42,193 nt of DNA from Actinomycetota bacterium (GTDB lineage: Bacteria; Actinomycetota; Geothermincolia; Fen-727; Anoxymicrobiaceae), in NCBI GenBank assembly GCA_016927325.1, contig JAFGMY010000085.1, positions 1-42,193 of the forward strand. Direction: 5' to 3'. Shown here piece after piece: positions 42 to 36,367 of the stretch. The notes beneath the pieces were generated by a model. That model did no database searches. It saw only the letters and a list, made by a program, of their open reading frames with translations, and was not told the DNA's origin. Numbering within the stretch: the stretch's first letter is position 1; each line of letters begins with the position of its first letter. The position numbers and the translations under genes were made by a program.

Positions 42-92
42 AAGTTAGACTGGTGCCAGTCTAAAGGCTGGGACACCGGGGTTAAACACCAT
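42..92 (-). repeat. Dispersed hairpin repeat, copy 1
   Basis: Read on the minus strand this starts ATGGTGTTTAACCCCGGTG and continues into a hairpin (50-79): outer stem CTGGTG/CACCGG with one wobble pair, a two-base GA bulge (72-73), inner stem CCAG/CTGG and loop TCTAAAGG. It is nearly identical to the copies at 15901-16040. The TAA stop of the adjacent flavoprotein gene (82-84) lies inside the repeat. There is no T tract after the stem, so it is not a classical terminator. The recurrence is visible directly; the nature of the element is unknown. Confidence 0.8.
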
Positions 93-1605
93 AGTGGGCC
101 GGGTCGGCCATTATGAGATCAGAGACACGAAGCGCTCCCGCCGCGGCAAGCTCGGTACCTATTCCCCGGCCGCCTACGTCTCCGCCTACCAGGTACAGGT
201 TTTTAATTGGCGTTTTTATCTGCGGCTTGTGTTCGCCTGTCTGGCCTACGATCTGTCCGATCCCGATACTGTCACCGGTAGGCTTTCCAGTCATGTGCGA
301 GTAGTAATGCGAGTTGGTCTGGACGGTCCAGTCGATATGGTCCTTGACCCTGGGGAAGTAGCTGAAAAGTTTCTGCTCGCCTTTTTCGAGAATCCGGTTG
401 CAGTGGTCCGCGGTGCTCTTGTCGCCGCTCCTCGGTCCGGGCATGCCCATTATGATAAGCTGCCTGCCCGGTTCGGCGAGGTTGTGGTCGACTTCAGTAG
501 GAATAGAAGTGAACATGTACGCATCGTCGGGAACAGTCCCGTTGTCTACATAGTCAAACATGGTTTCAGGATCCATATCCGGGACGTTGAACACACCGTT
601 GCTTCCTATGTCGGCCACCTTGCTGGAAAGCGCATATTTCCTGGTGATGTGTGAGTACGATGTCTTGAGTTCATGGGCGCGCCTGTAGTAATCGGCCGGG
701 AGGTTTTTCTCGCCTACCATTTCACTTGTCAGAAGTATGCCGGCGTTTGAAATGACCACATCCGCTGGTATCTCTTCACCGTTTTCAGTCTTGACACCGG
801 TTACCTCGCCGTTGTTGACAAGTATCTCATCTGCGGCGGTGCTGAGCCTCAGGTCTCCTCCGTCCCTCTGCATGGCTTCGATGTAAGCGACGGGGATTGC
901 GCGTGAAGCCCCTTCGGGAACACCGAAACTCGAAGCGTAAACCTGCTTCATCATGCTCCAGAGCATTTCACCGGCGCTGCAAACCGTGTAAGGGGTGGAT
1001 GTAAGGATCATCGCCGCATAAGCCACGACCTGGTGAATCATCAGGTTGTCAGTGAAGCCGAGCAGGAAATCCATGACCGTCACATCATCCAGTTCGCACA
1101 GATAAATCTCGTTAATGGAGACGAGGTTGATCATTTCCCTGATCAGGCCTGTTATCCCGCCTTCCCTTTTCATTATCCGGAAAAGTGAGTTGTTCATTAT
1201 GCTTTTGCGTCCCGAAGCCGTACCGCGGCCGCCCAGGGACTTAAGCGTTGACATGCCCGCGATATAGGCCAGCTTCATAGCCATTTCGGGATCGTAGATC
1301 GGCTGGCAGTAAGGGAGCCTGTACTTGCCTTCGATCACGAAAGTAATCTGGGTGCGCGGCGTCAGCCACCTCAAGTCGCCGCCGACAATGCTGTTTATTT
1401 CCGCCAGCGGTCCTTTCCGCCCTCTTGAAAACATATGTATACCCGAATCGACTATAAAGCCGTCTTTTTCGAATGAGTGACACCTGCCGCCGATATAGGG
1501 GTTTTTATCAAGGATCGTAACGTCGCATCCCCTGTGCTGCATCAACGCGGCGGCACCCGCCCCGCCGACACCAGTGCCGATGACTACAACTTTGAGCTTG
1601 CTCAC
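82..1605 (-). CDS. Phytoene-desaturase-like NAD(P)/FAD-dependent oxidoreductase
   Basis: This 507-residue flavoprotein belongs to the CrtI / COG1233 amine-oxidase-like superfamily, which desaturates, saturates or isomerises hydrophobic substrates using FAD. The N-terminus carries the dinucleotide-binding loop GTGVGGAGAA and then the acidic residue and GGRC of the FAD-binding motif. The C-terminus has the second FAD signature, with LYLVGGDVGGRGIG. I chose the GTG at 1605 because AAGGAGGG lies about 8 bases upstream and the FAD motif then starts at the usual distance; an ATG at 1680 would add 25 unconserved residues. It is divergent from the AOR gene and paralogous to the protein at 5049-6497. 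Its stop codon lies in a dispersed hairpin repeat. The substrate is unknown; a carotenoid role is possible but no other carotenoid genes are nearby. Confidence 0.85.
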   Translation of the reverse strand: MSKLKVVVIGTGVGGAGAAALMQHRGCDVTILDKNPYIGGRCHSFEKDGFIVDSGIHMFSRGRKGPLAEINSIVGGDLRWLTPRTQITFVIEGKYRLPYCQPIYDPEMAMKLAYIAGMSTLKSLGGRGTASGRKSIMNNSLFRIMKREGGITGLIREMINLVSINEIYLCELDDVTVMDFLLGFTDNLMIHQVVAYAAMILTSTPYTVCSAGEMLWSMMKQVYASSFGVPEGASRAIPVAYIEAMQRDGGDLRLSTAADEILVNNGEVTGVKTENGEEIPADVVISNAGILLTSEMVGEKNLPADYYRRAHELKTSYSHITRKYALSSKVADIGSNGVFNVPDMDPETMFDYVDNGTVPDDAYMFTSIPTEVDHNLAEPGRQLIIMGMPGPRSGDKSTADHCNRILEKGEQKLFSYFPRVKDHIDWTVQTNSHYYSHMTGKPTGDSIGIGQIVGQTGEHKPQIKTPIKNLYLVGGDVGGRGIGTELAAAGALRVSDLIMADPAHYGV

Positions 1606-2011
1606 ATCCACTCCCTCCTTCCGGCTCTTACGGCTTTCGCCGGAGAGTCGATAATCGGTTAAATCAACGAAAATTGTCAAAGATTAATAACAACTATATA
1701 TGATATTATTTAAACTGTGACTGATATATTATTTTATTTGCCATTGCATGAAAACAGGCAATTTCAGTCACCACCAAGGACGTCTCGTAATATACTACCT
1801 TTGTATTGCGCAGATTCCGACAGGCAGTTGATGGGTTGGAGAAGCCCTTACGCAACCGGTCAATCAATATTGATATCTTCTGTTCAAGGCAGTGTTGTAA
1901 CTTTTTTGATCGAAAGCCGGTTCCGAAAAACTGAATTGTGCTTTGACAACCCGCAATACGTTGCGTCAATTGAAAGAAACAGCTTTGTTCATGATTCCAA
2001 AGGGGGGCGAC
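1606..2011. promoter_or_regulatory. Divergent intergenic region with inverted repeats
   Basis: This 406-base gap separates two divergently transcribed genes and should contain both promoters. An inverted repeat GTGACTGA (1717-1724) / TCAGTCAC (1764-1771) encloses a second one, TTGCC (1738-1742) / GGCAA. A perfect 12-base palindrome ATCAATATTGAT lies at 1863-1874. A TTGACA-like -35 box at 1943-1948 has only a poor -10 partner. No convincing coding sequence or known riboswitch was recognised; I looked for a molybdenum/tungsten cofactor riboswitch because of the AOR gene and saw no match. Confidence 0.4.
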
Positions 2012-4078
2012 ATGAAAGGGAACTGGGGAAAGATACTGAAAGTGGACTTGACCGCAGGTTCCACGGAGGAGTTGAAGCTTGACGAGCAGCTCTACCATGA
2101 TTACCTGGGCGGCAGTGGACTGGCCGCAAAGTACTTTTTTGACCACGAAGGCTGGAAAGTTGATCCGCTCTCTCCGGAAAATCCGCTTATGATAATGCTT
2201 GGTCCGCTCTCGGGCAGCAACCTGCCGGGCACGGCCCGGCTCGAGTTCTGCGCCAGATCTCCCCTGACAGGAATATGGGGCGAGGCGTGTATGGGTGGTT
2301 TCTTCGCCCCTCAGCTCCGGGCTGCCGGGTACGACGGGATAATAATTACCGGAGCATCGGAAAAACCTGTCTACCTGCATGTCACCGACGAGAAGGTTGA
2401 GATAAAAGACGCCTCACATCTATGGGGTAAAGATACTTTCGAGACCGAGAGCGGCATCAAAAAAGAACTTGGTGATAAGAGGATACAGGTCGCTTCAATC
2501 GGACAGGCAGGCGAAAACCTGGTCAAGTACGCGTGCATAATGAACAACCGCGGCTCCACGGCCGGCCGTGGCGGGCTGGGCGCCGTCATGGGTTCCAAAA
2601 AGTTGAAGGCGGTTGTGGTTCGCGGCAAGAAGAAGATGGAGTTCGCGAATGAACAAAGAGTGAAGAGTATCGCAAAAGATATGCACGCCAAACTGAAGGT
2701 CAACCTTATAGCCGAAGGCCTTGGCGCTTACGGCTCGAATGTCGCCATGGAGTTCGGGATGTCGATTGGCGATACCCCTACCAAGAACTGGCGGATGGCA
2801 CATTGGCCCAACGGACCGGAGAACCTGGGTGGGGTGAGCGTCGCTGAAAGGATACTGACTGATCATCATGGCTGCCATGGGTGTCCGGTTGGATGCAAGA
2901 GAATCGTTGAGGTTAAATCCGGCCCTTACAAGGTGGAGGAAGGCCCCGGGGCCGAATATGAAGGGGCCGCGGCTCTCGGAACACTTTTAATGATCGACAG
3001 TCTTGAAGCCAATACCAAGGCAAACGATATGTGCAACCGGTACGGGATGGATGTAATTTCAGCTGGAGGAACTATCGCGTATGCGATTGAGGCTTATGAA
3101 AAGGGCTTGATTACCAGGGAGGACACCGGGGGCATCGCTCTGGAATGGGGCAATGCTGATTCTGTGCTCGAGATGCTCGACAGAATAGCGGGAAGAGAGG
3201 GCTTCGGCGATCTCCTGGCTGAAGGAAGCAGGGCCGCCTCGCGGAAACTCGGCGGTGAAGAGTTCGCCATTCAGGTGAAAGGCATGGAGTGCCCGATGCA
3301 CGATCCGAGGGCACTGTGGTCGATGGCGCTGACATATGCGACCAGCATCAGGGGGGCCTGTCACTGCGCGGATTCCAACCTTTATACCGAGTGGGGCCTG
3401 GGAAGTCATAAGGACCTGGGGGTTCCGCAGTCGATTCCGTTAAGGGCAAAAGGAAAAGCGGCCTCGACGATCGCTTCGCAGAAGAAGGGCAATATCGCGA
3501 ATTCGGCGGTCATCTGTGAGTACGTGGAGGTTATGTCGGGAGGCCTGTTAATGATAATGCAGGCTACGAACGCGGTGACCGGTTTGAATTACAGCCTGAA
3601 GGAACTGGCGGAGGTCGCCGACAGGATGTGGTACCTGAAAAGGTCGATTGGAAATCTCTGTGGGGCTACACGTGAGGACGACAAGCTGCCCAGGAGAATA
3701 GTCGAGCCCCATCAGGAAGGACAGACGTCTATCCTGGCTCCGATGATCTGGATTGGAATGAAGATGATGGAACCGCTTGAAGCTCTCATAAGCGACAACA
3801 TGGTTGATAATGTAATGAAGATGGCCAACAAATATGTATTCCCACGGTTGGGTCAGATGCTCGACTTGATGAAGTTTACGCTGCCTTGGTACTGGATCAG
3901 GCGCAGGAACCTTGTTAAAGGCAACACGAAAGCAATCAGCCGCACCGCCGTTCCCGTCGATGCGATGCTGAAGGATTTTTATGAATTGAGAGACATAGAC
4001 GAGCAGGGCCGGCCGACCAGGCGTAAGCTGGAGTCCCTGGGTCTAAAGGACGTTGCCGATGTACTGCATGGCGGTTGA
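2012..4078 (+). CDS. Tungsten-type aldehyde:ferredoxin oxidoreductase (AOR family)
   Basis: AOR-family enzymes use a tungsto-bispterin cofactor and one [4Fe-4S] cluster to oxidise aldehydes to carboxylates with ferredoxin; BamB of class II benzoyl-CoA reductase is a relative. The protein starts MKGNWGKILKVDLTAG as the family does. It has the pterin-binding stretch around PGTARLEFCARSPLTG and the cluster cysteines C288, C291, C295 (CHGCPVGC) and C502 (VICEYV). At 688 residues it is longer than the usual 600-620; the extra C-terminus (from about residue 580) is methionine-rich. The ATG at 2012 has AGGGGGG upstream; an earlier in-frame ATG at 1943 lacks support. A MoaD-like gene follows. The substrate cannot be assigned. 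Confidence 0.93.
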   Translation: MKGNWGKILKVDLTAGSTEELKLDEQLYHDYLGGSGLAAKYFFDHEGWKVDPLSPENPLMIMLGPLSGSNLPGTARLEFCARSPLTGIWGEACMGGFFAPQLRAAGYDGIIITGASEKPVYLHVTDEKVEIKDASHLWGKDTFETESGIKKELGDKRIQVASIGQAGENLVKYACIMNNRGSTAGRGGLGAVMGSKKLKAVVVRGKKKMEFANEQRVKSIAKDMHAKLKVNLIAEGLGAYGSNVAMEFGMSIGDTPTKNWRMAHWPNGPENLGGVSVAERILTDHHGCHGCPVGCKRIVEVKSGPYKVEEGPGAEYEGAAALGTLLMIDSLEANTKANDMCNRYGMDVISAGGTIAYAIEAYEKGLITREDTGGIALEWGNADSVLEMLDRIAGREGFGDLLAEGSRAASRKLGGEEFAIQVKGMECPMHDPRALWSMALTYATSIRGACHCADSNLYTEWGLGSHKDLGVPQSIPLRAKGKAASTIASQKKGNIANSAVICEYVEVMSGGLLMIMQATNAVTGLNYSLKELAEVADRMWYLKRSIGNLCGATREDDKLPRRIVEPHQEGQTSILAPMIWIGMKMMEPLEALISDNMVDNVMKMANKYVFPRLGQMLDLMKFTLPWYWIRRRNLVKGNTKAISRTAVPVDAMLKDFYELRDIDEQGRPTRRKLESLGLKDVADVLHGG

Positions 4079-4163
4079 AGCCCGATAGGAATCAGCTGTA
4101 GTTACCGCCTGCAACTCGTGGATGAAGCGGCCGGCGACAGGTGAAGACAGGGTGTGGTCAGAT

Positions 4164-4412
4164 ATGGCGACTGTAAAGTTACATACCCTCCTCGTGAAGC
4201 AAACAGGAATAAGGGACTATCGGAGTTCAGCCGGTACTGTATCTGAGTTGCTGGATGAGCTCAAAGAGAAGCACGGCGATTCCATTGAAAGGTACCTGAA
4301 AAACTGTATCGTCATCGTAGACGGCAGAAAGTACGAGGGCGAAAAGGGCATGAGGAAGAAGATCAAACCCGGGAGCGAAGTGTCGATATTCCCCCGCGTA
4401 GCCGGGGGGTAG
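4164..4412 (+). CDS. MoaD/ThiS-family sulfur-carrier-like protein
   Basis: This 82-residue beta-grasp protein ends in the Gly-Gly (RVAGG) that MoaD and ThiS proteins need for adenylylation and thiocarboxylation. The SIFPRVAGG ending is the canonical MoaD terminus. MoaD supplies sulfur for the dithiolene of molybdopterin, the cofactor precursor of the AOR encoded 85 bases upstream, and MoaD-like genes commonly sit next to AOR genes. No MoaE or MoeB homologue is present in the window. I chose the ATG at 4164 because the protein then begins at the first beta strand (MATVKLHTLL); an ATG at 4122 would add 14 residues. The ribosome binding site is weak in both cases, so the start is uncertain. Confidence 0.85.
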   Translation: MATVKLHTLLVKQTGIRDYRSSAGTVSELLDELKEKHGDSIERYLKNCIVIVDGRKYEGEKGMRKKIKPGSEVSIFPRVAGG

Positions 4413-5048
4413 TCGAAGTCCTGCGCGCCGCTTCCGCTGCGCGTCAACGCGGTTCGTTGGAGTAAGACGAAGCGGCTTGCCTCCGTATTTCCGCTACCCT
4501 CATGCTTTCTGCTCCGCGTCGGATATTGGTGAAATACCGATTGACAGTGAATAACACCACTGATAGTCTTCGGTGTGCGGATAATCGGCGATTCATTAAC
4601 AAAACAAGGCCTGGAGTCCGAATTGGGGATTTCGGTTATCAACGGGTTGATCATAAGACGGTTCTGTTTCTATCCTGTCCAGATCTTCTTTTCCGGATTT
4701 ACATGAGAAATCAAGAAAACGATTCTCTCACTTCTTTATTTTTTTCTCCTGCGGAACCTGACAAGCGGCTTGCTGGATAACAAGCCATGGCCGCGGAGGA
4801 TACCGTGTAAGAAGAGAATCCCGCTATCGGGCCTGCGGTACGTTTTAAGGAGGGTGAAAGTCTGAAATTTACAGGCTTTCGCAGCGAGAATCAGGAAGTT
4901 GATGAAAAAGAATGATATCGGGTATGGAGGATGCCGGCGGGATCACTGAGTAACAGCGGTTCAGTATTCAGATTTAATGGAATGTGGTCGTGCCGGCCCG
5001 AGACAGGGGGGGGCGCATGATACGTCCTTTCAGGTGGGAGGTAATTAC
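4413..5048. other. Long intergenic region without a convincing gene
   Basis: These 636 bases separate the MoaD-like gene from the second flavoprotein. A 92-codon open frame at 4502-4780 has no ribosome binding site and no recognisable domain. Two hairpins stand out: GGCTTG/CAAGCC at 4767-4786 (8-base loop), and a 9-bp stem at 4856-4880 (GAAAGTCTG / CAGGCTTTC with one wobble and loop AAATTTA). The second follows an AAGGAGGG that has no usable start codon at the right distance. Neither has a T tract on the plus strand. Confidence 0.4.
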
Positions 5049-6497: not shown

Positions 6498-6573
6498 ACT
6501 GTTTACAGATTCCGGGAGATCAGGAAAAGAGCTTTCAGGAGAGACTGGAAGACTATTAGTCAGGAGGTCGTCT

Positions 6574-7164
6574 ATGGCATTTCAAGACATGCCGCATTTG
6601 CCTGCGGAGTACATGCCCCGGCTGGAAAAGCTGGCGGAAAAGGCGAAACGTGGAGAACTCGAGTTGGGGAGCGTCATGGGCGCAATGATGCCCCCGATGA
6701 TAGCGCATGTGATGCCGGTACTTATGAGAACGGGTGGAGAGCAGATAGCCGAAATGATACCCCGGATGATGTCCGCCCTTCCATCAATGCTTCCGGCGGT
6801 GATGGGAAAACAAATTTTTGTCCATATAAGGGAAGTCGGTTTTTTCATTGCCAAAATCGGAATCAGACCCAAGCTGTTTGATTTCGTACCGTCCAGCCTT
6901 GAGGAAATAAAGAAAGCCGGTATTCCCGGTGTTTCTATAGATCCCGGTGCATTAACGGGAGGAATAGCCCGGATGACGGCACCGGGGTCGATGAAAGTTT
7001 ACGGTATTAACGAGCTGATTGAAATGTTCAGCGGTATTAATATCAGCAGGATGATGTACATGATGCCGGAGATGATGGGACTGATGACCAAAGAGGTATT
7101 CCAGAGCATGCAGGAGCCGGTACTGGAGGCTGTTGACCAGCTGTTAACGTCAAATGGGGTGTGA
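6574..7164 (+). CDS. Methionine-rich protein of unknown function
   Basis: I do not recognise this 196-residue protein. Methionine makes up about 25 of its residues (roughly 13%), clustered in MGAMMPPMIAHVMPVLM (about 35-51), PRMMSALPSMLPAVMG and SRMMYMMPEMMGLM near the C-terminus. These segments look amphipathic or hydrophobic rather than like long transmembrane helices, and I see no signal peptide, cysteines or histidine clusters. The start is firm: CAGGAGG lies 7 bases before the ATG. The stop is only 4 bases before the next gene's start, which puts it in the operon with the FAD-oxidase/iron-sulfur trio. By position it may be a small scaffold, membrane-docking or substrate-binding partner; that is inference. 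Confidence 0.85.
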   Translation: MAFQDMPHLPAEYMPRLEKLAEKAKRGELELGSVMGAMMPPMIAHVMPVLMRTGGEQIAEMIPRMMSALPSMLPAVMGKQIFVHIREVGFFIAKIGIRPKLFDFVPSSLEEIKKAGIPGVSIDPGALTGGIARMTAPGSMKVYGINELIEMFSGINISRMMYMMPEMMGLMTKEVFQSMQEPVLEAVDQLLTSNGV

Positions 7165-7168
7165 TGAT

Positions 7169-8650: not shown

Positions 8651-8674
8651 TAAAAAAGGGAAGGGGATGTGAAA

Positions 8675-12767: not shown

Positions 12768-13020
12768 AGCAGGACCTCCAGCGGCATGCCTTCATTTCGG
12801 AACGGTTGCCTGATCGTAGATCGAACTGTTTTCCGTGAAAAAACGTCAATATGTATTGTCTGCTGCATGCTTATATGCGAGTACTTATGTTTGGCGGCCA
12901 ACAATATGCAATATGCCGACTATTATTACTTGCGGCGCCACCGGTAAGCAAAACAGGATAGAAACGCATTTTACAGAATAGTATCAGAGATACTTGTTTG
13001 AGAACATGGAAGGGGCTGAA

Positions 13021-15885
13021 ATGAAGAACCGACGTTTACCAACTCGAAGATCGACGCGGCTTGTCGTCGCGATTGCCGTCTTGTCTCTTGTTGTTATGAT
13101 GATACCCGCCGCAGGTTCGGCCGGTGCAGCTTGCGTGACCGAAGACGAGGCGCGCAGCACGGCTTCCAGGCTGATAGACCGCGTACTCGCCGAAACCCTG
13201 AAGAGGCCCGGTGCGCCCGGGACAGAACCGGAGTGGAAGGGGGCTTTCCCCGGCGATCCGCTTCTGGTGCATGGTATGGAAGGCGGGCCGTCGGAGTACA
13301 TCGTACCGGTTGTGAATAAGACCGGGGAAACGGTTTCGATTATCGGTGTCGGCGCAGCTGACGCCCGATGGCACTGGTACGCAGGCTACCCCCATTTAAA
13401 GTTCCCACCTGTCGACGCCGGCAAAGCTATGTCCAGGGTCGAAGGTTTTCTTGAAGATGCAGGTATTAAAGCGGAGCCGGGGGTGCCCTCGGCAACAATG
13501 GCGTCCGACAAGACCGTTTACTGGACTTTCAACATCAGTGAAGGCGGCCCGGTAAAAACTGTCTACCTGCCTGCGTTTTCTGAAGGAAAAGCGTACACAA
13601 ATCTGGAGCCGCCATGGAAAACGGAAAAGGAGTTCGACAGGGTGGATGTTCCATCGGACAAGGGTGGAACCGCCGGGGGTTTAAAATCGTCGGCCAGGGA
13701 CATTTATCCGGGGGGAGCACAGGCTGCCTACAATATCCAGGGAGTCCCTTATCACGCTCAAACCACTGACTACTGGTGCGGCCCGGCGTCGCTGGAGATG
13801 GTATTCGACTACTTCGGTCCCGACATCAGCCAGGCCGAAATTGCAAGCGTAGCCAACTCTAATTCCTCGTATGGCTGCTATAACACCGAAATCGCAAGGG
13901 CCGGACAGTTTTCGAGCCAGAGCACCTCTGTGCAGAGCCCCGGCCTTCAGGGATACACAGGAAGGGACTATGGTTATGGAGTGGCTTCGGCGTCCTGGCG
14001 GGACGGCACCGCTCTCTACGCCAGACGGTACAGTGACCTGAAGGACCTTATTTCCAGTGATATCCCGGTTATGACACTCACATGGTACGACCAGTCTCAC
14101 AGTTCCGGACATTTCAGGGTCGCCAAGGGGTACAACGATAACCTGGGAACGATCATATTTCACGATCCATGGTATTCCGGAACGCTTTCGGGGCCGGATG
14201 TCTCTTTGAATCAGGACTATTTCGTTGATAACCTGTGGAACTATTCGGACAGGTGGGCCATGATAGCCTGCCCGTTGAAAGTGATTCTCGACAAGCCTGT
14301 TTCAGTAACCGCGGGGCAGGTCTTCTCGGTTACCGCGCGGGTTTACTACATCGGACCCGAACCGCTTGACGGTCAGTATCCCTGTCATGACGACACGGTG
14401 TCCGCTACGATTCGTACTGCACTCGGCGACTACAAGCTGGTAGGCAGCCAGACAAACCAGAGGGTCTACGGAATGGAGGGCACCGGGACGTTCGGGACCG
14501 CCACATGGACGGTGCAGTCACTGAAGGTCCAGAACACCGACGATATTTCAGTTGACGCGCAGGGGCTGATCAACGGTTCGACCTCCGCTTACCCAAGCTA
14601 CCAGGACTGGATAGGAGGTTCGGGCAGTGAAGGTGAGGAGGCTTTAACCACCTCGAGAGCATGGGCACACGACTCGATCGGCGTACCCGGTCCGAGCGAT
14701 ACATGGTACCTGGCGGAAGGTTCGACAAGGGGCGGATTTGAGACATGGATTCTGGTTCAGAACCCTAACGACCAGGATGCCGAAGTTTCTTTAACTTACA
14801 TGACGGAAAAAGGAGAGGAAGCGGGGCCGTCCGTTGTAATAGGCGCAAACTCCCGTATGACATTTTTTGTGGGCGACACCGTTGCCGATACCTGGAGCGT
14901 TTCCACGAAAGTCGAGTCTGATCTGCCCGTAATAGCGGAAAGGTCGATGTATGGAAACAACCGGACCTGGGGCCACGACTCAATAGGGGTAACGGAACCG
15001 GCTGATACCTGGTACCTGGCGGAAGGCTGCACCAACGGTGGCTTCGAGACCTGGATACTGATCCAGAATCCGAACGACAGCGCCGCTGAAGTGACGCTGT
15101 CTTATATGACGGCGGACGGGGAAAGAAGAGGTCCCACGGTCGAGCTTCCGGCGAACTCAAGGCAGACTTTCTTTGCCGCCGATTCCGTGCCGGACACTTG
15201 GGATGTTTCCACCCTGGTTACTTCCGACGTGCCGGTTATTGCCGAGAGGGCTATGTACGGTGGCAGCCGGACCTGGGGCCATGACTCCGTAGGCGTTTCA
15301 GAACCCGCCGATACATGGTACCTGGCGGAAGGCTGCACCAACGGTGGCTTCGAGACCTGGATACTGATCCAGAACCCGGAAGATGTTCCTGCCGAGGTCC
15401 AGTTGACGTACATGACAACCGAAGGGCCGGTGGCCGGGCCGGGCGTGACTATCGGTCCAAACTCGAGGCAATCTTTTGATGTGGCTGAAACGGTTCCTTC
15501 GACATGGTCCGTTTCAACTGAAGTGAGTTCCGACATACCGGTCATAGCCGAGAGGGCCATGTACGGCAACAACCGCACGTGGGGCCATGATTCAAGAGGT
15601 GTCAGTCTGGCGTCCAATACATGGTACCTGGCGGAAGGGTGTACAAATACCGGGTTTGAGTCATGGGTGCTGGTTCAGAACCCGAATACGGGACCTGTTG
15701 ACGTGACGCTGACTTTTATGACACCGGGCGGCGCAATCACAGGGCCTGCCATGACCCTGCCGTCGAATACGCGTTATACATTTAATGTCGGCGATTATGT
15801 GCCGGGCGAGTGGGAGGTCTCGACACAGGTTGACGCAAGTCTTCCAGTAATAGCCGAGCGCGCGATGTACGGGGACAGTAATTAA
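13021..15885 (+). CDS. Secreted C39-family peptidase with four 102-residue C-terminal repeats
   Basis: This 954-residue protein starts with a signal peptide: positive N-terminus, hydrophobic core LVVAIAVLSLVVMM, and a likely cleavage after Ala-Gly-Ser-Ala-Gly-Ala. After a region of about 190 residues comes a papain-like C39 peptidase domain: C253 in YWCGPAS, H364 in SGHFRV and D382 in FHDPW. Residues 547-954 are four repeats with the signature TWYLAEG...NGGFETWILIQNPND. No ABC transporter domain or sortase anchor is present, so it is probably a free extracellular or wall-associated protease or adhesin. I chose the ATG at 13021 (AAGGGG 5 bases upstream); in-frame TTG 12994 and ATG 13006 are alternatives. 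The TAA stop abuts a dispersed hairpin repeat. Confidence 0.88.
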   Translation: MKNRRLPTRRSTRLVVAIAVLSLVVMMIPAAGSAGAACVTEDEARSTASRLIDRVLAETLKRPGAPGTEPEWKGAFPGDPLLVHGMEGGPSEYIVPVVNKTGETVSIIGVGAADARWHWYAGYPHLKFPPVDAGKAMSRVEGFLEDAGIKAEPGVPSATMASDKTVYWTFNISEGGPVKTVYLPAFSEGKAYTNLEPPWKTEKEFDRVDVPSDKGGTAGGLKSSARDIYPGGAQAAYNIQGVPYHAQTTDYWCGPASLEMVFDYFGPDISQAEIASVANSNSSYGCYNTEIARAGQFSSQSTSVQSPGLQGYTGRDYGYGVASASWRDGTALYARRYSDLKDLISSDIPVMTLTWYDQSHSSGHFRVAKGYNDNLGTIIFHDPWYSGTLSGPDVSLNQDYFVDNLWNYSDRWAMIACPLKVILDKPVSVTAGQVFSVTARVYYIGPEPLDGQYPCHDDTVSATIRTALGDYKLVGSQTNQRVYGMEGTGTFGTATWTVQSLKVQNTDDISVDAQGLINGSTSAYPSYQDWIGGSGSEGEEALTTSRAWAHDSIGVPGPSDTWYLAEGSTRGGFETWILVQNPNDQDAEVSLTYMTEKGEEAGPSVVIGANSRMTFFVGDTVADTWSVSTKVESDLPVIAERSMYGNNRTWGHDSIGVTEPADTWYLAEGCTNGGFETWILIQNPNDSAAEVTLSYMTADGERRGPTVELPANSRQTFFAADSVPDTWDVSTLVTSDVPVIAERAMYGGSRTWGHDSVGVSEPADTWYLAEGCTNGGFETWILIQNPEDVPAEVQLTYMTTEGPVAGPGVTIGPNSRQSFDVAETVPSTWSVSTEVSSDIPVIAERAMYGNNRTWGHDSRGVSLASNTWYLAEGCTNTGFESWVLVQNPNTGPVDVTLTFMTPGGAITGPAMTLPSNTRYTFNVGDYVPGEWEVSTQVDASLPVIAERAMYGDSN
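14659..15882 (+). repeat. Four exact 306-bp in-frame tandem repeats
   Basis: Repeat units begin at 14659, 14965, 15271 and 15577, each exactly 306 bases (102 codons) with no insertions or deletions, and the fourth ends at the last sense codon of the gene. Each begins TWGHDS (AWAHDS in the first) and contains TWYLAEG about 14 residues later. Units 2 and 3 share 59 identical bases (15010-15068 and 15316-15374), which suggests recent duplication or gene conversion; the other units are more diverged. Confidence 0.92.
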
Positions 15886-15906
15886 CCCCGGTGTCCCATA
15901 ATGGTG
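15883..15906 (+). repeat. Dispersed hairpin repeat, partial copy
   Basis: The sequence TAACCCCGGTGTCCCAT matches the left half of the repeat, but the CACCGG arm is absent. Its TAA is the stop codon of the C39 peptidase gene. The full copies start immediately downstream, so this looks like a truncated unit. Confidence 0.65.
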
Positions 15907-15975
15907 TTCAACCCCGGTGTCCCAGCCTTTAGACTGGCACCGGTCCACATAGACTGGCACCGGTCCACCTGTTAT
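15901..15975 (+). repeat. Dispersed hairpin repeat, copy 2
   Basis: After ATGGTGTTCAACC comes the hairpin at 15914-15943: CCGGTG, a TC bulge, CCAG, loop CCTTTAGA, CTGG, CACCGG. The stem has ten base pairs. The 20-base tail AGACTGGCACCGGTCCACAT is then duplicated with one or two changes (15931-15950 and 15951-15970). Confidence 0.85.
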
Positions 15976-16040
15976 TCAACCCCGATGTCCCAGCCTTTAG
16001 ACTGGCACCGGTCCACATAGACTGGCACCGGTCTAACTTT
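15976..16040 (+). repeat. Dispersed hairpin repeat, copy 3
   Basis: This is a tandem near-duplicate of copy 2, offset by 68 bases. The hairpin is at 15982-16011, with CCGATG in place of CCGGTG (an A opposite C, so one mismatch). It ends GGTCTAACTTT, the same end as copy 1 on the minus strand (CAGTCTAACTTT), which helps define the right boundary of the element. Confidence 0.83.
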
Positions 16041-16054
16041 GACTGGTATTTGAG

Positions 16055-16080
16055 GCGGGGCACCTTTGCCCCGCTTTTTC
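16055..16080 (+). terminator. Intrinsic terminator downstream of the C39 peptidase gene
   Basis: A perfect 7-bp stem GCGGGGC (16055-16061) / GCCCCGC (16068-16074) with loop ACCTTT is followed by TTTTTC. This is a textbook Rho-independent terminator on the plus strand. It lies about 170 bases past the stop, so the repeat copies would be transcribed with the gene. Confidence 0.88.
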
Positions 16081-25540: not shown

Positions 25541-26293
25541 TTGGTTAAATACGCAGCTGAAGTTGAATACAACGGAAAGAAGTTCCATGGCTTTCAAAAA
25601 CAACCGGGCCTCCAGACGGTACAGGGGGCATTTGAAAGGTGCCTGCTGACTTTCACCGGGCGGGAAATCCGGGCGTTCGGGGCCGGCAGGACAGATACAG
25701 GCGTACACGCGAAGGGACAGGTTATTTCATTTGAAATGGAAAAGGAGGAGAACGCGGACAGCCTTATGAAAAGAATGAACAGCCTGCTGCCTGACGGTGC
25801 AGCGGTAACTCAAATCGCCGTTGTCGACGACTCTTTCAACCCGAGGCGCGATGCGATCTGGAGGGAGTATCGCTACTTTTTTCTGTGCAGGACCGCGCCT
25901 TCTCCAGTGCTTGAGGATTTCTCCATTCATTATCCGAGGCCGCTCGACCGCGACTTAATGGACAAGGCGTGTTCCGCTGTTCTCGGAGAACATAATTTTT
26001 CGGCTTTCAGGGTAAAGGGACAGGACGAGTCCAATGTCCGTGAGGTTTTACGTTGTGAGTTCACGGAGGATATTCTCGGTCTGCTTTGCCTCGTGGTCAG
26101 GGCGAACTCTTTCCTTTACAGGATGGTCAGGATTCTCGGAGGTGCGATAATCTCGATTGGAGCGGGCAAGATGACACTGGATGAGTTTGCCGGATATCTC
26201 GAAGGAGGCGTTGAGCCTTGCGCCGAGCCGCTTTCCCCGTATGGGCTTTTTCTCTGGAAAGTCGCTTACCCCCCTGATAAGGTTAATTTCTAA
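25541..26293 (+). CDS. truA: tRNA pseudouridine(38-40) synthase
   Basis: TruA converts uridines 38-40 in the tRNA anticodon stem-loop to pseudouridine. The 250-residue protein has the family start VKYAAEVEYNGKKFHGFQKQ, the catalytic aspartate D52 in GAGRTDTGVHAKGQ, and the C-terminal RMVRILGGAIISIGAG. The start is TTG at 25541 with AAGGGG about 8 bases upstream. In Actinobacteria truA usually sits between rplQ and rplM; here a PASTA-amidase gene separates it from rplM. Its TAA stop (26291-26293) runs directly into a dispersed hairpin repeat. Confidence 0.96.
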   Translation: MVKYAAEVEYNGKKFHGFQKQPGLQTVQGAFERCLLTFTGREIRAFGAGRTDTGVHAKGQVISFEMEKEENADSLMKRMNSLLPDGAAVTQIAVVDDSFNPRRDAIWREYRYFFLCRTAPSPVLEDFSIHYPRPLDRDLMDKACSAVLGEHNFSAFRVKGQDESNVREVLRCEFTEDILGLLCLVVRANSFLYRMVRILGGAIISIGAGKMTLDEFAGYLEGGVEPCAEPLSPYGLFLWKVAYPPDKVNF

Positions 26294-26348
26294 CCCCGGT
26301 GTCCCGGCGCGTGCTTTTCATAATGAGAAACATAAAGACCGGCACTGG
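26291..26348 (+). repeat. Dispersed hairpin repeat, copy 4
   Basis: CCGGTG (26296-26301), TC bulge, CCGG (26304-26307), a 31-base loop, CCGG (26339-26342), CACTGG (26343-26348). The outer stem keeps pairing through one G-T wobble, and the inner stem differs from copies 1-3 but still pairs. The loop itself contains TTTTCAT/ATGAGAAA. Further on, AACCCC (26428-26433) and GGGGTT (26490-26495), the latter followed by GAAA, look like remnants of another copy. The TAA of truA forms the left edge. Confidence 0.7.
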
Positions 26349-26561
26349 TGCGTTTCTTCAATCCGGCACCTGTGAAATATTGATCAGGCACTTTGCGATG
26401 CCAACTTAAGAGACGTGGCACAGGTCCAACCCCAGATACGAGTGTCCGGATTCCAACCATTTGATTCACGTTTAATTTCGAAACAACGCGGGGTTGAAAT
26501 AGCGGCATTCATGTTGTAACATGATAACAATGATTATTATTGTTAATTATTGTTAAGGTAA

Positions 26562-27973: not shown

Positions 27974-27987
27974 CAACGTACTATATT

Positions 27988-28010: not shown

Positions 28011-28022
28011 GTGAGGATACTT

Positions 28023-28481: not shown

Positions 28482-28485
28482 GAAA

Positions 28486-28878: not shown

Positions 28879-28999
28879 GCACCGCCTTATTATTTCCTTT
28901 CACCAATTGAGCCATGTTGAATTATCATGGTATATGACGTATTCATGCCTGTAATATAATAGCGTTCGGCGGGAAGAAGGAGTCGTATCTGGAGGCGCC
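28879..28999 (+). promoter_or_regulatory. rpsI-glmM gap with a possible promoter
   Basis: A TATAAT at 28955-28960 lies 40 bases before the glmM start, in an AT-rich gap of 121 bases. No clear -35 box sits at the right distance. No terminator hairpin is visible after rpsI, so glmM may also be read from the rplM promoter. Confidence 0.3.
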
Positions 29000-30331: not shown

Positions 30332-30378
30332 CAGGATAATTCGTACGTAATTTCTATTTAACATGGGACTGATAACAT

Positions 30379-32208
30379 ATGTGCGGTATTGTTGGATACA
30401 CCGGCGGCAAACAGGCGAAATCAATTCTCTTTGAAGGTCTCAGAAGGCTGGAGTACCGGGGATATGATTCCGCCGGCATCTGCGTGGTTTCTCCGGATGG
30501 CGAACTTGACTGCGTGAGAGCGGTTGGCAACCTCGACAATCTGGAGAAGGTTCTAGAGGGTTTCGATATGCCCGGAACCCTGGGGATCGGTCACACAAGG
30601 TGGGCCACCCACGGCGCTCCCACGGAGTCGAACGCTCACCCACACCTGGACTGTTCCGGCGACATCGCGATAGTACACAACGGCATAATTGAAAACTTTA
30701 CCCGCTTGCGGCACGAACTTTCGGAAAGAGGCCATACTTTCAAGTCGGATACTGACAGTGAAACGCTTGCGCATCTGATCGAGGAACATTACAGGGGAGA
30801 CCTTGCGGAAGCTCTGAGAAAGGGGCTTTCACAGGTCGAAGGCTCTTTTGCCGTCGTAGCCGCCTGCAGGAAGAACCCCGGCGAGATAGTGGGAGCGAGG
30901 CGCAACAGCCCTCTGGTTGTCGGCATCGCGCCGGGGGAATATTACGTGGCGTCCGCCGTCCCCGCCTTTCTTTCAAGAACACGCACCGTTTTGTTTCTTG
31001 ACGACGATGAGATACTCTCGATCGGCTCTGAAGGGCTGAAGATCATCCTCATGGACGGTTCGGAGGTTCAAAGAGATTCCGCCGAGGTCGGCTGGGACAT
31101 CGATTCAGCCGAGAAGGGCGGTTATGAGGATTTTATGCTGAAGGAGATCTTCGAGCAGAAAAAGGCCGTAGAGGACACGCTTGCGGATAAGTTTAACTCG
31201 AGGGGGGAAATTGAAATGGAGGGGCTCGACCTCTCCGGCGAGGAAGCGAGAAACCTCAGGCGCATAATAGTGGTCGCATGCGGGACTTCATACCATGCGG
31301 GAATCCTCGCGAAGTTTCTACTCGAGAAGTGGGGATGCCTTCCGGTGGAGATCGAGATAGCCTCGGAGTTCCACTTCCGCGACCTGGCGGTGGCGAAAGG
31401 CGATCTCGTTATCGCCATAAGCCAGTCGGGTGAGACCGCGGATACTATTGCGAGCGTTAAAGCGGCCAGGAAGCTGGGGGCGAGGGTCACGTCGATCGTC
31501 AATGTGGTCGGCAGCCAGATGGGCCGCGATTCGGATGACGTAATTTATACACACGCCGGTCCGGAAATAGGGGTCGCGGCGACAAAGACGTTCACCTCGC
31601 AAATGGCGGTTATGTACCCGCTTGCCATGTCGATCGGCCTTTTGAGGGGGACCGTTTCAAGTGAAATTTGCGATAGTGTTATGAAAGAGCTTCGCAGCAT
31701 TCCTTCCAAGATGGAAAATGTCCTGGATTTCGACGGCACTGTCAGGGAGGTGGCAGGGAAGTTCCAGAACTGTCCCGATTTTCTTTATCTCGGCCGGAGC
31801 TTCGGGTATCCCATCGCCATGGAAGGCGCTCTCAAGCTGAAGGAAATATCTTATATTCACGCGGAAGGATATCCGGCCGGGGAGATGAAGCACGGCCCGA
31901 TCGCACTTCTGGACGACGGCGTCCCGGTTGTTGCCATAGCAACAAGGGATTCTGTATACGATAAAATGATAAACAACATCGAGGAGGTAAAGGCAAGGAA
32001 AGCTCCGGTGGTGGCGGTGACCACGGTTGGAGACACCCGGATCGCCGATATCTGCGAGGCGGTGTTTGAAGTGCCGGAGACGATGGAAGTGCTGTACCCC
32101 CTTCTGACGGTTATTCCTCTTCAGCTTCTTGCGTATCACATAGCGAAGTTCAAGGGGTGCAATGTCGATCAGCCGCGCAATCTGGCAAAAACAGTTACCG
32201 TCGAATAA
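30379..32208 (+). CDS. glmS: Glutamine-fructose-6-phosphate aminotransferase (isomerising)
   Basis: GlmS makes glucosamine-6-phosphate from fructose-6-phosphate and glutamine, the first step of the hexosamine pathway. The 609-residue protein has the N-terminal nucleophile C2 (MCGIVGYTGG), the glutaminase motifs RRLEYRGYDSAGI and GHTRWATHG, two SIS domains (ACGTSYHAG, ISQSGETADT, LGRSFGYPIAMEGALKLKE) and the C-terminal DQPRNLAKTVTVE. The 47 bases before it show no glmS ribozyme. The ribosome binding site is weak. It is probably co-transcribed with glmM. Confidence 0.98.
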   Translation: MCGIVGYTGGKQAKSILFEGLRRLEYRGYDSAGICVVSPDGELDCVRAVGNLDNLEKVLEGFDMPGTLGIGHTRWATHGAPTESNAHPHLDCSGDIAIVHNGIIENFTRLRHELSERGHTFKSDTDSETLAHLIEEHYRGDLAEALRKGLSQVEGSFAVVAACRKNPGEIVGARRNSPLVVGIAPGEYYVASAVPAFLSRTRTVLFLDDDEILSIGSEGLKIILMDGSEVQRDSAEVGWDIDSAEKGGYEDFMLKEIFEQKKAVEDTLADKFNSRGEIEMEGLDLSGEEARNLRRIIVVACGTSYHAGILAKFLLEKWGCLPVEIEIASEFHFRDLAVAKGDLVIAISQSGETADTIASVKAARKLGARVTSIVNVVGSQMGRDSDDVIYTHAGPEIGVAATKTFTSQMAVMYPLAMSIGLLRGTVSSEICDSVMKELRSIPSKMENVLDFDGTVREVAGKFQNCPDFLYLGRSFGYPIAMEGALKLKEISYIHAEGYPAGEMKHGPIALLDDGVPVVAIATRDSVYDKMINNIEEVKARKAPVVAVTTVGDTRIADICEAVFEVPETMEVLYPLLTVIPLQLLAYHIAKFKGCNVDQPRNLAKTVTVE

Positions 32209-32665
32209 ACGGTTTGTCAATTTCAGCTCTTGTGCCAGGCGATAACTTCGCAGGAACCTGCTGGGGAAGGATCCCTCTCCTCGATCTTCAGGCGGTTTGC
32301 GGTCCTTAACCTCCGGTGCGGACAAAAGCCAAATCGGAAGTGCGACAAGAGTGTCGCACCGTAAAAGATTTATAAGCAATAGAAACCGATAACCATATCC
32401 GCGGGGGAACGGTCTTCCGCCTCGATCCCCGGATTGCTGAGCGGTTTAAAGAAGGTAAGGTCTTATTTCTTTTATCAGGCGTTCATTTCAGGAGGCGGTA
32501 AAAAAGAAAAGATAAAATACCCTCCCTGAACGACCCCTTCCCATACACCCCTCTTCGGGGTTAAACCCTTGATTCCGGCATCGGAAGGGCTGTGCTAAGA
32601 AGGACCTTGGACGTAAAATAAAGCATATTACCGTAACGGGCATTCGAGAAATACGAGGGGGCGGA
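32209..32665. other. Intergenic region between glmS and nnr
   Basis: This 457-base gap contains no convincing gene. It holds a perfect 8-bp hairpin GTGCGACA (32340-32347) AGAG TGTCGCAC (32352-32359), a longer imperfect one TTCAGGAGG (32487-32495) / CCTCCCTGAA (32521-32530), and ACCCC/GGGGT around 32548-32563. None has a T tract. In several Actinobacteria an acpS gene lies here; I see no trace of one. Confidence 0.4.
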
Positions 32666-34219
32666 TTGAAGGTAGTAACTCCAAAGGAGATGGCGGCAGT
32701 CGACCGTGCGGCGATAAAGAGCGGTATCCCGGGGATTGTGCTGATGGAGAACGCGGGGAAAGCGGCGACGCATGCGGCGATGGATATGATCTCTTACGAT
32801 TCCAGCGCAAATGCGGCAATATGGTGCGGCAAGGGCAACAATGGGGGAGACGGATTTGTGATAGCCCGTCTGCTCGACAAGATTAGTAACAGCGTGAGTG
32901 TTTTTCTGCTCTGCCGGCCGTCCGAACTAAAAGGCGATGCACTTGAGAACTATAACCGGATTGCTGGAACATCAATCCCCATCCATGTGACAACCGACCC
33001 TGTTGATCTGGAGCGGTCGTACTGCGAGATGAAACCTTTCAGTCTTGTCATAGACGCGATATTCGGAACTGGGTTTTCAGGTGAGCCCACTGGGATTCAC
33101 CGGGCGGCCATAGAGAAGATCAACGAGGTGGAGTGTCCGGTACTGTCGGTTGATATTCCCAGCGGTGTTTCCGGTGAAACAGGCGCGGTTCCCGGTGTCG
33201 CCGTCAGGGCGGACAGGACGGTCACTTTCGCCGCTCCAAAGGTCGGGCTGGTCCAGTACCCAGGAAAAGAGTACGCGGGCGAGCTCGATGTTGCGGACAT
33301 AGGGATTCCGATGCACTTTCTACAGGAGGTGCCCGAAACAAATATCGAGACGGTGGAGGGTGAAAACGCCGATCTGCTTCTTCCCGGGCGGAGACCGGAT
33401 GCCCATAAAGGCGACTCGGGGCGGGTATTGGTGGTCGGGGGCGCACCGGGAATGACCGGCGCGCCGGCAATGAGCGCGAGGGCGTCGCTTAGAACGGGGG
33501 CGGGGCTCGTTACATTGGGTGTGCCGGAAGGCCTGCATGACATTTTCGAAATCAAACTGACCGAAGTGATGACCCGTCCTTATTCGCAGACCGCGGATAG
33601 AACATTTTCCCTTATGGCCGCGGATGAGATACTCAAGGTTGCCGGTGGTTTCGATGCGCTCGCTGTCGGTCCCGGAATATCCGTTAATGACGAGACGGCG
33701 AAAATGGTAAGGAAGCTGGTGGCGGAAGCGGAAGTGCCGGTGGTCCTTGATGCGGATGGTCTGAACGCGATGATCGGGCATACTGATATTTTCAAAGACC
33801 GGAAGGGTTCGCTGGTAATAACTCCACATCCCGGGGAGATGTCCCGGCTGCTGGGAATGGAGAGTGCCGCGATACAGGCGGACAGGGTCGGGACCGCTGC
33901 CGCGGCCGCGAAAAACTGGGAAGTAATCGTCGTCCTGAAGGGAGCGAATACGGTAACCGCGGACATGGAAGGCCGCGTCAGGATAAACTCCAGCGGCAAC
34001 CCCGGTATGGCGTCGGCGGGAATGGGTGATGTACTTACCGGTTGCATCGCATCACTTATAGCCCAGGGATGCTCTGTGTTTGATGCCGCGGTAGCCGGTG
34101 TGTACTTTCACGGTTATTCGGCGGATCTTGTCGCCAGTATGGACGGCATGACCGGAATGGTTGCAAGTGATGTAATAAGGCACCTTCCTCTTGCTTTGCG
34201 CAAGTCCGGCCGGTTGTAA
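32666..34219 (+). CDS. nnr: Bifunctional NAD(P)H-hydrate epimerase / ADP-dependent NAD(P)H-hydrate dehydratase
   Basis: Nnr repairs hydrated, damaged NAD(P)HX. The 517-residue protein is a fusion. The N-terminal YjeF epimerase domain (about 1-215) has MAAVDRAAIKSGIPGIVLME, IWCGKGNNGGDGFVIARLL and DAIFGTGFSGE. The C-terminal ribokinase-like dehydratase (about 230-510) has HKGDSGRVLVVGGAPGMTGA, LDADGLNAM, TPHPGEMSRLLG, VVLKGANTV and GNPGMASAGMGDVLTGCIA. The start is TTG at 32666 with GAGGGGG upstream. Location between glmS and alr is typical of Actinobacteria. Confidence 0.96.
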   Translation: MKVVTPKEMAAVDRAAIKSGIPGIVLMENAGKAATHAAMDMISYDSSANAAIWCGKGNNGGDGFVIARLLDKISNSVSVFLLCRPSELKGDALENYNRIAGTSIPIHVTTDPVDLERSYCEMKPFSLVIDAIFGTGFSGEPTGIHRAAIEKINEVECPVLSVDIPSGVSGETGAVPGVAVRADRTVTFAAPKVGLVQYPGKEYAGELDVADIGIPMHFLQEVPETNIETVEGENADLLLPGRRPDAHKGDSGRVLVVGGAPGMTGAPAMSARASLRTGAGLVTLGVPEGLHDIFEIKLTEVMTRPYSQTADRTFSLMAADEILKVAGGFDALAVGPGISVNDETAKMVRKLVAEAEVPVVLDADGLNAMIGHTDIFKDRKGSLVITPHPGEMSRLLGMESAAIQADRVGTAAAAAKNWEVIVVLKGANTVTADMEGRVRINSSGNPGMASAGMGDVLTGCIASLIAQGCSVFDAAVAGVYFHGYSADLVASMDGMTGMVASDVIRHLPLALRKSGRL

Positions 34220-34221
34220 TC

Positions 34222-34538
34222 ATGGTTTATTATCTGCGGTACGGGTCATAGAAGCTGCGAGTTCGGTTACTTCAAGGACAGTGTGGTTTCAGCCACGGTT
34301 TTCTTCCTGGTGTAAGAAGTGCGGAGCGCGCATGCCGGGACCCCGGTACAGTAAGTCCGATTGACGCGGCCTGAGTCGATTTCGTCTGCTTCGGTGGACG
34401 GGAGAACTGCTGTGCCACGCCCGTGCCGGTTGCCGGGAAATGGAATCCGTTCGAGCGCGCCATGCGCGGAAATATGGTGATTTCCAACTGCTGACTTCCC
34501 GGTCCCGCTTGTTATGGTGAATCGGAGTAATAAACCAT
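34222..34538. mobile_element. Possible MITE-like element with 11-bp terminal inverted repeats
   Basis: A perfect 11-base inverted repeat ATGGTTTATTA (34222-34232) / TAATAAACCAT (34528-34538) flanks 295 bases that are more GC-rich than the repeats and carry no open reading frame. Inside are small hairpins such as GGAAAT/ATTTCC and GTGG/CCAC. No clear target-site duplication is seen. It fills most of the 425-base gap between nnr and the CBS gene (34220-34644); the rest of that gap is AT-rich and probably holds the CBS promoter. Confidence 0.35.
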
Positions 34539-34644
34539 ATTAATGTAAAATATAAGCTGGTTTTTGAAAAATTAATACCGGCTGAAATTGCGGTAATCAT
34601 GTTTTGTTTACAGGAACTATTGCTCGAAGGAAGAAAGGGAGAAT

Positions 34645-35127
34645 ATGCATAGCATCAAAGTTGAGCAGGTGATGACGAAGAATCCGATTACTGTCGCACC
34701 TTCCGTTACGGTTGTTGAAACGGCAAAAAAGATGATAGAGAGCGACATAGGAGGATTACCTGTCGTAGGTGATGACGGCGGGCTTCTCGGGATCGTCACC
34801 GAAAGCGATTTGATCGTACACGATTCAGACGTGAAGTTCCCCTCGTTTGTACACTTTCTGGCCGGGTATGTTTTTGTGCCTGGAAGCCTTAAGAAATTTG
34901 ACGAAAAGTTCCGCCGTGCTGTCGGGAACACTGCAGGTGACGTTATGACAAAAGATGTTGTGACCGTTGATGCTTCAGAAACAGTCGAGGATGTGGCCAC
35001 AAAGATGTCGGAGAATAAAATGAAGCGGTTTCCAGTGGTGAAAGAGGGGGAACTGGTTGGAATAATCACTATGAAGGATATTGTCCGGTTGATCAGCAGA
35101 GACATTCCCGTCGTCAGTGAAGATTGA
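34645..35127 (+). CDS. CBS-domain pair protein
   Basis: This 160-residue protein consists of two CBS motifs and little else: VEQVMTKNPITVAPSVTVVE...GLLGIVTESDL (about 6-57) and AGDVMTKDVVTVDASETVED...GELVGIITMKDIV (about 96-151). They are joined by a 35-residue segment (FVHFLAGYVFVPGSLKKFDE) of a type often seen in stand-alone bacterial CBS proteins. Such Bateman modules bind adenosyl ligands such as AMP, ATP or SAM and regulate partners; the ligand and partner are unknown here. The ATG at 34645 has AAGGGAG upstream. alr follows after 36 bases and may be co-transcribed. Confidence 0.93.
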   Translation: MHSIKVEQVMTKNPITVAPSVTVVETAKKMIESDIGGLPVVGDDGGLLGIVTESDLIVHDSDVKFPSFVHFLAGYVFVPGSLKKFDEKFRRAVGNTAGDVMTKDVVTVDASETVEDVATKMSENKMKRFPVVKEGELVGIITMKDIVRLISRDIPVVSED

Positions 35128-35163
35128 AGAACCGGCGCTGAAACAAGAGGTGCTTACCCGGCA

Positions 35164-36300
35164 ATGAATAACGAATCAGGAATTTACAGGCCGCTCGAAG
35201 CGAAGATAGATCTGGATGCCGTCAGGCATAACGTACTGTACTTAAAAGAAAAAATATCCGGGGACTGCGCTTTTATGGCGGTTGTCAAGGCTAACGCGTA
35301 TGGTCATGGTGACATTGAGGTTTCACGGGCCGCTCTTGAGGCCGGTGCCGATTGCCTTGGTGTGGCGCTTGTGGAAGAAGCGGTAAGGCTGAGGCAGGCC
35401 GGGATAGAGTGCCCGGTTCATCTCCTGTTCGAGCCTCCGCCCGGCGCAGCATCCGTTGCGGTGAAGAACGGACTCGTTTGCACGGTTTACACGAGGGAGT
35501 ATGCGCGTGCTCTGTCGGAAGCGGCCGCAAAGACCGGGGTAACCGTGAGGGTGCATATCAAGGTCGATTCTGGAATGCGCCGGGTAGGTGTCGACCCCGC
35601 GGATTTTCAGTCGTTTTGCATCTATTTGAAGGATTTGCCTGCGCTCGATGTTGCCGGGATATATACACACCTCGCGGTTGCGAGCGAACCGGCTGATCCG
35701 TTTACAGAACTGCAGTTGGGCGAGTTCGACCGTGTATCAAAAAAAGCGGAGGAGATTTTCGGGAGGCGGCTCGTAAAACACGCCGCGAACAGTTCGGGAA
35801 TTCTCGCATTCCCGAAAAGTCACTACGATCTGGTGAGGGCCGGTATCGCGATGTACGGCCTTTTTCCATCTTCGAAGCTGTCACGGTTCACCGGGTTGAA
35901 ACCCGCGTTGTCTCTTGTGGGTGAGGTGGCTTATGTCAAGAGGGTTCGCGAGGGCGAGGGAATCAGTTACGGCCTTCTTTACAGGCCGCCGAAAGACACA
36001 TTTATCGCAACGATCCCCGTAGGTTACGCCGACGGGTATTCCCGGATGCTTACGGGGTGCGCCGAGGTACTGATCGACGGGGTCAGACGGCCTGTCGCAG
36101 GGGCGGTATGCATGGATCTTTGCATGGTCGATCTGGGAGAGTGTGAAGTGAAGAAGGGGGCGCCGTTCGTGCTGATCGGAAAGGACGGAGACGAGGAGAT
36201 TACCGCGGATGAAATCGCCCGCAAGCTTGGCACGATCAACTACGAAGTAACCTGCATGATCAGCTCGAGAGTCCCAAGGACATATGTCGGGAAAGTTTGA
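35164..36300 (+). CDS. alr: Alanine racemase
   Basis: Alr makes D-alanine for peptidoglycan with pyridoxal phosphate. The 378-residue protein has the PLP lysine K42 in FMAVVKANAYGHG, KVDSGMRRVGV, the opposing catalytic tyrosine Y269 in GISYGLLYRPP, IPVGYADGYSRML and the C-terminal NYEVTCMISSRVPR. The ATG at 35164 has AGAGGTG about 12 bases upstream, a rather long spacing. Its TGA stop (36298-36300) is followed without a gap by a dispersed hairpin repeat. Confidence 0.97.
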   Translation: MNNESGIYRPLEAKIDLDAVRHNVLYLKEKISGDCAFMAVVKANAYGHGDIEVSRAALEAGADCLGVALVEEAVRLRQAGIECPVHLLFEPPPGAASVAVKNGLVCTVYTREYARALSEAAAKTGVTVRVHIKVDSGMRRVGVDPADFQSFCIYLKDLPALDVAGIYTHLAVASEPADPFTELQLGEFDRVSKKAEEIFGRRLVKHAANSSGILAFPKSHYDLVRAGIAMYGLFPSSKLSRFTGLKPALSLVGEVAYVKRVREGEGISYGLLYRPPKDTFIATIPVGYADGYSRMLTGCAEVLIDGVRRPVAGAVCMDLCMVDLGECEVKKGAPFVLIGKDGDEEITADEIARKLGTINYEVTCMISSRVPRTYVGKV

Positions 36301-36367
36301 CCGGTGCCATGTCTTTAATAATGCTGACGCATGACAAAAGACATGGGACACCGGAGTTGAAAACCAT
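36301..36367 (-). repeat. Dispersed hairpin repeat, copy 5
   Basis: CCGGTG (36301-36306), CCATGTCTTT (36307-36316), loop, AAAGACATGG (36337-36346), a GA bulge (36347-36348), CACCGG (36349-36354). The outer stem and bulge are as in the other copies; the inner stem is a different, ten-base perfect pairing. The loop holds a further ATGC/GCAT. Read on the minus strand it starts ATGGTTTTCAACTCC, so its orientation relative to the neighbouring gene is opposite to copies 1-4. It directly follows the alr stop. Confidence 0.82.

Follow-up and report, generated by a model that had tools for sequence, protein, structure and literature searches.

REP-type repeats are best known from Proteobacteria. In Pseudomonas, inverted REP doublets that form one hairpin are described as REPINs (PMC3116915), and REPs of the GTAG class often supply a TAG stop codon and adjoin the 3' ends of upstream genes (PMC3733652). 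The hairpin family analyzed here resembles REPINs in its conserved inverted ends, variable spacer, and single hairpin and in being extragenic, present in many copies, accompanied by solo ends, and lineage-restricted (PMC3116915). Like REPs in general, of which a genome holds tens to hundreds as short palindromes between genes, it is numerous (93 to 94 copies), and it shares with REP/RAYT repeats a conserved bulge or mismatch in the stem. As with GTAG and CGTC REPs, its copies lie downstream of genes, near or supplying the stop codon, in a genome that contains RAYT genes; CGTC REPs likewise lack a dedicated transposase (PMC3733652, PMC2817692). Unlike REPINs, however, the family has no GTAG- or GTGG-type head and no cognate RAYT gene was found beside it; its arrays are mostly head-to-tail, whereas REPs usually form inverted pairs, and some of its copies are nested in loops. 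It also differs from GTAG and CGTC REPs in that neither tag lies beside the stem, in its long, length-variable inner stems, and in its strong placement at tRNA and tmRNA 3' ends. The initial annotation had named REP elements moved by RAYT transposases as the closest concept, and the comparison supports that choice. We consider it probable, with moderate confidence, that this is a lineage-restricted, REPIN-like palindromic repeat family, non-autonomous and probably moved as a single-stranded hairpin by a RAYT-type Y1 transposase. Counted against this reading were the lack of a flanking RAYT or other transposase gene, a flank that is not GTAG, and the mostly head-to-tail order of tandem copies. 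The family works like a REP or REPIN; classical REP membership is unsupported, since neither the tag nor a flanking RAYT gene was found.

The window, the whole 42,193-nucleotide stretch of DNA that was analyzed, is contig C137 of a 2.47-Mb assembly of 178 contigs that is 82% complete. The seed CCGGTGTCC was observed 6 times in the window compared to 0.35 expected (at least 6 in 0 of 100 shuffles) and 91 times in the whole genome compared to 19 for a reversed-pattern control; on these two grounds a chance origin of the excess was rejected. Copies were gathered genome-wide around this seed and the right arm, three sub-families were aligned, and covariance models were made for the A type (R1; a 30-nt hairpin), the B type (R2), and the C type (R3). 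The initial annotation had looked to such a model for further copies and had held that finding none would count against a family; in the event, R1, R2, and R3 gave 58, 56, and 75 matches, respectively, in the same genome. When merged, these represented 93 to 94 distinct copies at about 79 loci, with a copy divided between two contigs (C8:5948 and C113:5733) counted as one, and only 3 copies lay within a called ORF. The hairpin repeat family is genuine and extends beyond the window. A known RNA family was rejected as its identity, since a search of the window returned no Rfam match above the gathering score.

Table 1. Members of the hairpin family and an adjoining terminator-like hairpin in the window
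Feature	Position	Strand	Score or basis
A-type copy, hairpin 50-79	41..91	-	R1 76.0 bits
Solo left module AATTAACCCCGGTGTCCCATA	15879..15899	+	sequence
A-type copy, hairpin 15914-15943	15902..15952	+	R1 70.6 bits; RNA fold -16.7 kcal/mol
Solo right module AGACTGGCACCGGTC	15950..15967	+	sequence
A-type copy, hairpin 15982-16011, outer arm CCGATG	15970..16020	+	R1 62.1 bits
Solo right module AGACTGGCACCGGTCTAACTTT	16018..16039	+	sequence
Intrinsic-terminator-like hairpin with T tract, separate from the family	16052..16077	+	directly after array
C-type copy, hairpin 26296-26348	26285..26359	+	R3 63.9 bits
B-type copy, hairpin 36301-36354	36291..36365	-	R2 96.8 bits; fold -29.4 kcal/mol, z -6.5

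All five full copies first recognized in the window were confirmed, as were their TC/GA bulge and the three kinds of inner stem (Table 1). The outer stem CCGGTG/CACCGG proposed for all five was not constant, however, reading CTGGTG at 50-79, CCGATG at 15982, and CACTGG at the end (26348) of the copy at 26296. The locus at 15.9 to 16.04 kb is a small array of two A-type copies, one solo left module, and two solo right modules; in its second A-type copy, the CCGATG arm breaks one outer-stem pair and the fold is weak. Across the genome, the consensus unit, TGGTGTTYAACYCCGGTGTCCCA-[variable spacer]-TGGCACCGGTCWAACTTT, is longer than the hairpin alone and consists of short inverted conserved ends, GTTYAACYCCGGTGTCC and GGCACCGGTCWAACTTT, around a variable, self-pairing spacer. 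The strand folds as one long hairpin with a TC bulge that is retained in most copies. The spacer is CAGCCTTTAGACTG in the A type and CATGTCTTT...AAAGACATG, with an inner ATGC/GCAT stem, in the B type, and GTTTTGCNNNAGGCAAAAC-like stems are found in C-type spacers. The outer stem is CAGGTG/CACCTG or CGGGTG/CACCCG in some copies, such that C-G, A-T, and G-C interchange at the second outer pair. This pair was Watson-Crick in 50 of 69 copies compared to 36.0 with shuffled arms (matched in 0 of 10,000 shuffles), although related copies share ancestry and these are not counts of independent events; changes on both sides of a pair were also seen within the A, B, and C alignments. Covariation was taken from this arm-based shuffle test, and a combined model-based alignment that contained wrong-strand matches was set aside. 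Relative to shuffled sequences, B and C copies folded far better (z = -4.3 to -6.5), whereas several A copies and the copy at 26296 folded only weakly better. Pairing is thus kept while the sequence changes, in three sub-families. The earlier claim to that effect holds for pair-preserving changes, which are clearest genome-wide, but the three inner stems in the window represent sub-families with different loops and lengths and not one clean covariation. Similarly, the proposal of a folded element under selection stands as far as a folded, dispersed family is concerned; selection for the fold is just one possible reading, given that pairing would also be preserved in a mobile element that is copied as a hairpin.

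In the consensus, the hairpin is flanked by GTTYAACY and GTCWAACTTT (the latter AAAGTTWGAC when read on the other strand), and neither flank carries a GTAG, GTGG, CGTC, TGTC, or CCTC tag at the palindrome foot. The placement of a bulged hairpin beside a short fixed motif (TTAAC on the left, TCWAAC on the right) is like that at IS200/IS605 ends; unlike those elements, the family has no element-internal gene and only one hairpin, and its cleavage sites are putative. An integron attC site was considered, as GTTTAAC fits RYYYAAC, and was rejected on reading the sequence because the motif is directly repeated and not inverted. An intrinsic terminator was likewise rejected, in agreement with the initial annotation: no T tract follows the consensus foot, and the window array is followed by a separate terminator. 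Since this terminator lies directly 3' of the array, the array copies are in a 3' UTR and are not terminators themselves.

At three of the four window loci, the element supplies a TAA stop codon exactly 2 nt before the hairpin. An FAD oxidoreductase gene (82-1680) terminates at the TAA at 82-84 (minus strand), 2 nt before the hairpin foot; the TAA at 15883-15885, in the solo left module, ends the gene at 12994-15885 and is followed 2 nt later by CCGGTG; and that at 26291-26293 ends a truA-like gene (25541-26293; Pfam PseudoU_synth_1) 2 nt before the foot of the C-type hairpin. At the fourth locus, where the copy is oriented opposite to its neighbors, the right flank GTTTGA provides the TGA stop codon (36298-36300) of an alanine racemase gene (35164-36300), with 0 nt between this codon and the foot. 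A small ORF near this copy (36382-36807) matched the NMD3 family (PF04981) significantly, at 34.9 bits, which is unusual in a bacterium. Gene context was then counted genome-wide from extracted regions, in which genes had been called by a simple codon score. Of 71 loci, 52 had the left end of the element facing a gene 3' end (p = 1e-4), and the right end did so at 39 of 70; with only coding-sequence neighbors considered, 41 of 58 on the left side faced by the 3' end (41 versus 17). Sixteen stop codons lay 2 to 5 nt before the hairpin foot, and 11 of these were at exactly 2 nt because the TAA belongs to GTTTAACC. These results indicated that the family is located at gene 3' ends and that the element supplies the stop codon.

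The orientation of the left end toward gene 3' ends is also what would be expected of an RNA element under selection in 3' UTRs and in the trailers of stable RNAs, serving as a stabilizer or as a processing or translation-end signal and multiplied because it is useful, with mobility secondary. Such an element would be consistent with the ratio of G-T to A-C pairs on the element plus strand (53:25, from a model-fitted alignment that is partly biased) and with the uniform orientation of copies behind stable-RNA genes described below. However, protein genes alone showed a weak strand preference (21 same strand versus 12 opposite; p = 0.16), many copies are degenerate, the window array has a separate terminator after it, and copies are also found behind non-functional tRNA fragments. 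We regard a primarily selected RNA element as improbable.

The association with stable-RNA genes was pronounced. The genome had 39 tRNA matches above the cut-off, and among the approximately 34 tRNA genes with a readable downstream side, 11 had a copy within about 60 nt past the CCA end, including one degenerate copy (C89) and one cut by a contig end (C121). Relative to protein-gene ends, this is an approximately 24-fold excess (Fisher p about 4e-12, assuming about 2,400 protein genes). A copy was also found directly behind a tmRNA gene (RF00023, 74 bits) that is truncated by the end of its contig, and all 12 tRNA and tmRNA copies had the same orientation (p = 0.0005). Moreover, copies adjoin tRNA 3' fragments at C24, C178, and C79. 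The excess and the fragments, together with the tRNA segments at C66 described next, could be read as relics of integrase attachment at tRNA 3' ends, that is, as tyrosine-recombinase sites or scars that were later dispersed, but most copies are at protein-gene ends, the unit contains no recognizable tRNA sequence, and no recombinase gene was present among the ORFs beside the copies examined; an integrase relic is very improbable. At C66 (G000:C66, L002, 1357-1660), an A-type copy behind tRNA-Ala is located between two segments of approximately 60 bp that comprise the tRNA 3' end and trailer. At G000:C79:15336 (L046), a copy is found within an apparent tRNA-Ser remnant that lacks its 5' part, with the variable arm on one side of the copy and the T-loop on the other. 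Inverted copies of a tRNA's own T-arm were also observed 15 to 60 nt past tRNA genes, e.g., GCAGGTTCGAGTCCTGC and then GCAGGACTCGAGCCTGC, at G000:C41:40446, C77:16074, C158:128, C66:8909, and C121:69 (L264, L266, L278, L002, and L284, respectively); with such a copy in the trailer, the 3' half of the tRNA could pair with its own trailer. No description of a strong tRNA or tmRNA 3'-end placement of REPs was found in the literature searched, and this placement and the nesting of copies in loops would be the parts new to a specialist.

At C142, C7, C113/C8, and C105, A-type copies sit within the loops of longer ones, and comparable nesting was noted at C143, C79, and C145; C5 carries a counterpart of the C142 outer copy without the insert. 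Head-to-tail arrays occurred at C61, C104, C122, C168, and C175 as well as in the window, and arrays break contigs at C29, C97, and C134. As judged from these arrangements, the nesting and the arrays are consistent with a repeat that inserts and multiplies. A miniature element of another kind, namely, a MITE derived from a DDE-type insertion sequence, with the imperfect terminal inverted repeats (GTTNRACCGGTG-like) as the outer stem, would likewise be short, non-coding, and dispersed, with inverted ends. This origin is unlikely: no insertion sequence with such ends was present between the copies examined, inspection of the listed copies by eye revealed no target-site duplication, and the asymmetric ends and variable internal stems are unlike those of a simple deletion derivative. 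It is quite unlikely, too, that the family stands outside the RAYT/REP system as a palindromic mobile element targeting hairpins (the loops of older copies and the T-arm or 3' ends of tRNA and tmRNA), always in one orientation behind stable-RNA genes.

With regard to a RAYT-type enzyme, the initial annotation had suggested looking for a RAYT gene, and two (PF01797) are indeed present, L011 (G000:C4) and L012 (G000:C47), with NF047646 scores of 70 bits (below the cut-off) and 87 bits (above the cut-off), respectively; neither these nor the 29 RAYT loci of relatives are flanked by the hairpin family, since R3 had no match at any of the 31 loci. The L012 gene is flanked by GGGCCTTTCAGGCCC-type palindromes and the L011 gene by GGTGCCTGGCACC palindromes that are dispersed at further loci. 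At L012 (1000-2100), repeated GGGGCTGAAA.../GGCGGGCCTTTCAGGCCCGC hairpins with CTCACTCAAG linkers on both sides of the RAYT gene constitute a separate REP-like family. At L011 (1386-2370), the RAYT-like gene has its own palindrome pair, GGTGCCTGGCACCAAGTGATGCAAAATGTCGCATTTGGTGCCAGGCACC, and the whole unit or one half of it is found again at C61:34076, C80:527, and C100:1721 and in L141; in two cases, the distance to a copy of the hairpin family is about 45 bp. This RAYT-1 repeat is, like the hairpin family, a dispersed palindrome; it differs in sequence and in that it flanks its RAYT gene, whereas the hairpin family does not. Three GGCACCAGTCT units beside the L011 gene resemble the right arm GGCACCGGTCT, a likeness that may offer a weak lead tying this RAYT to the family. 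By inspection, no transposase was seen between closely spaced copies, where long ORFs resemble ordinary host proteins.

The family is lineage-restricted. R1 had no match in 30 other genomes of the class, and R3 had none in 396 other genomes of the phylum in a search with stricter filters, which weak matches may escape. Exact-pattern matches in relatives resembled the family only in the pattern as such. When 85,000 species genomes were scanned for the left end, two single matches were obtained, both of which lack the hairpin and look like chance occurrences within coding sequence.

In the REPIN-like reading that we favor, the copies would be non-autonomous and would disperse in the form of single-stranded hairpins. 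These would be cut by a RAYT-type Y1 (HUH) transposase, which would either act in trans or be encoded by a gene possibly absent from the 82%-complete assembly. A preferred target may be a loop or a T-arm hairpin. Insertions would survive chiefly where genes stay undamaged and would then persist in 3' UTRs as RNA hairpins. The family is well populated and occurs in a bacterial class in which, as far as we found, no REP-type repeats have been described, and its placement at gene ends is unusually precise, 2 nt past the stop codon and behind about one-third of the tRNA genes in a single orientation. The copies nested in hairpin loops offer direct access to the question of how targets are selected by such repeats; should a cognate enzyme be found, in vitro tests of target choice by single-stranded hairpins would become possible.
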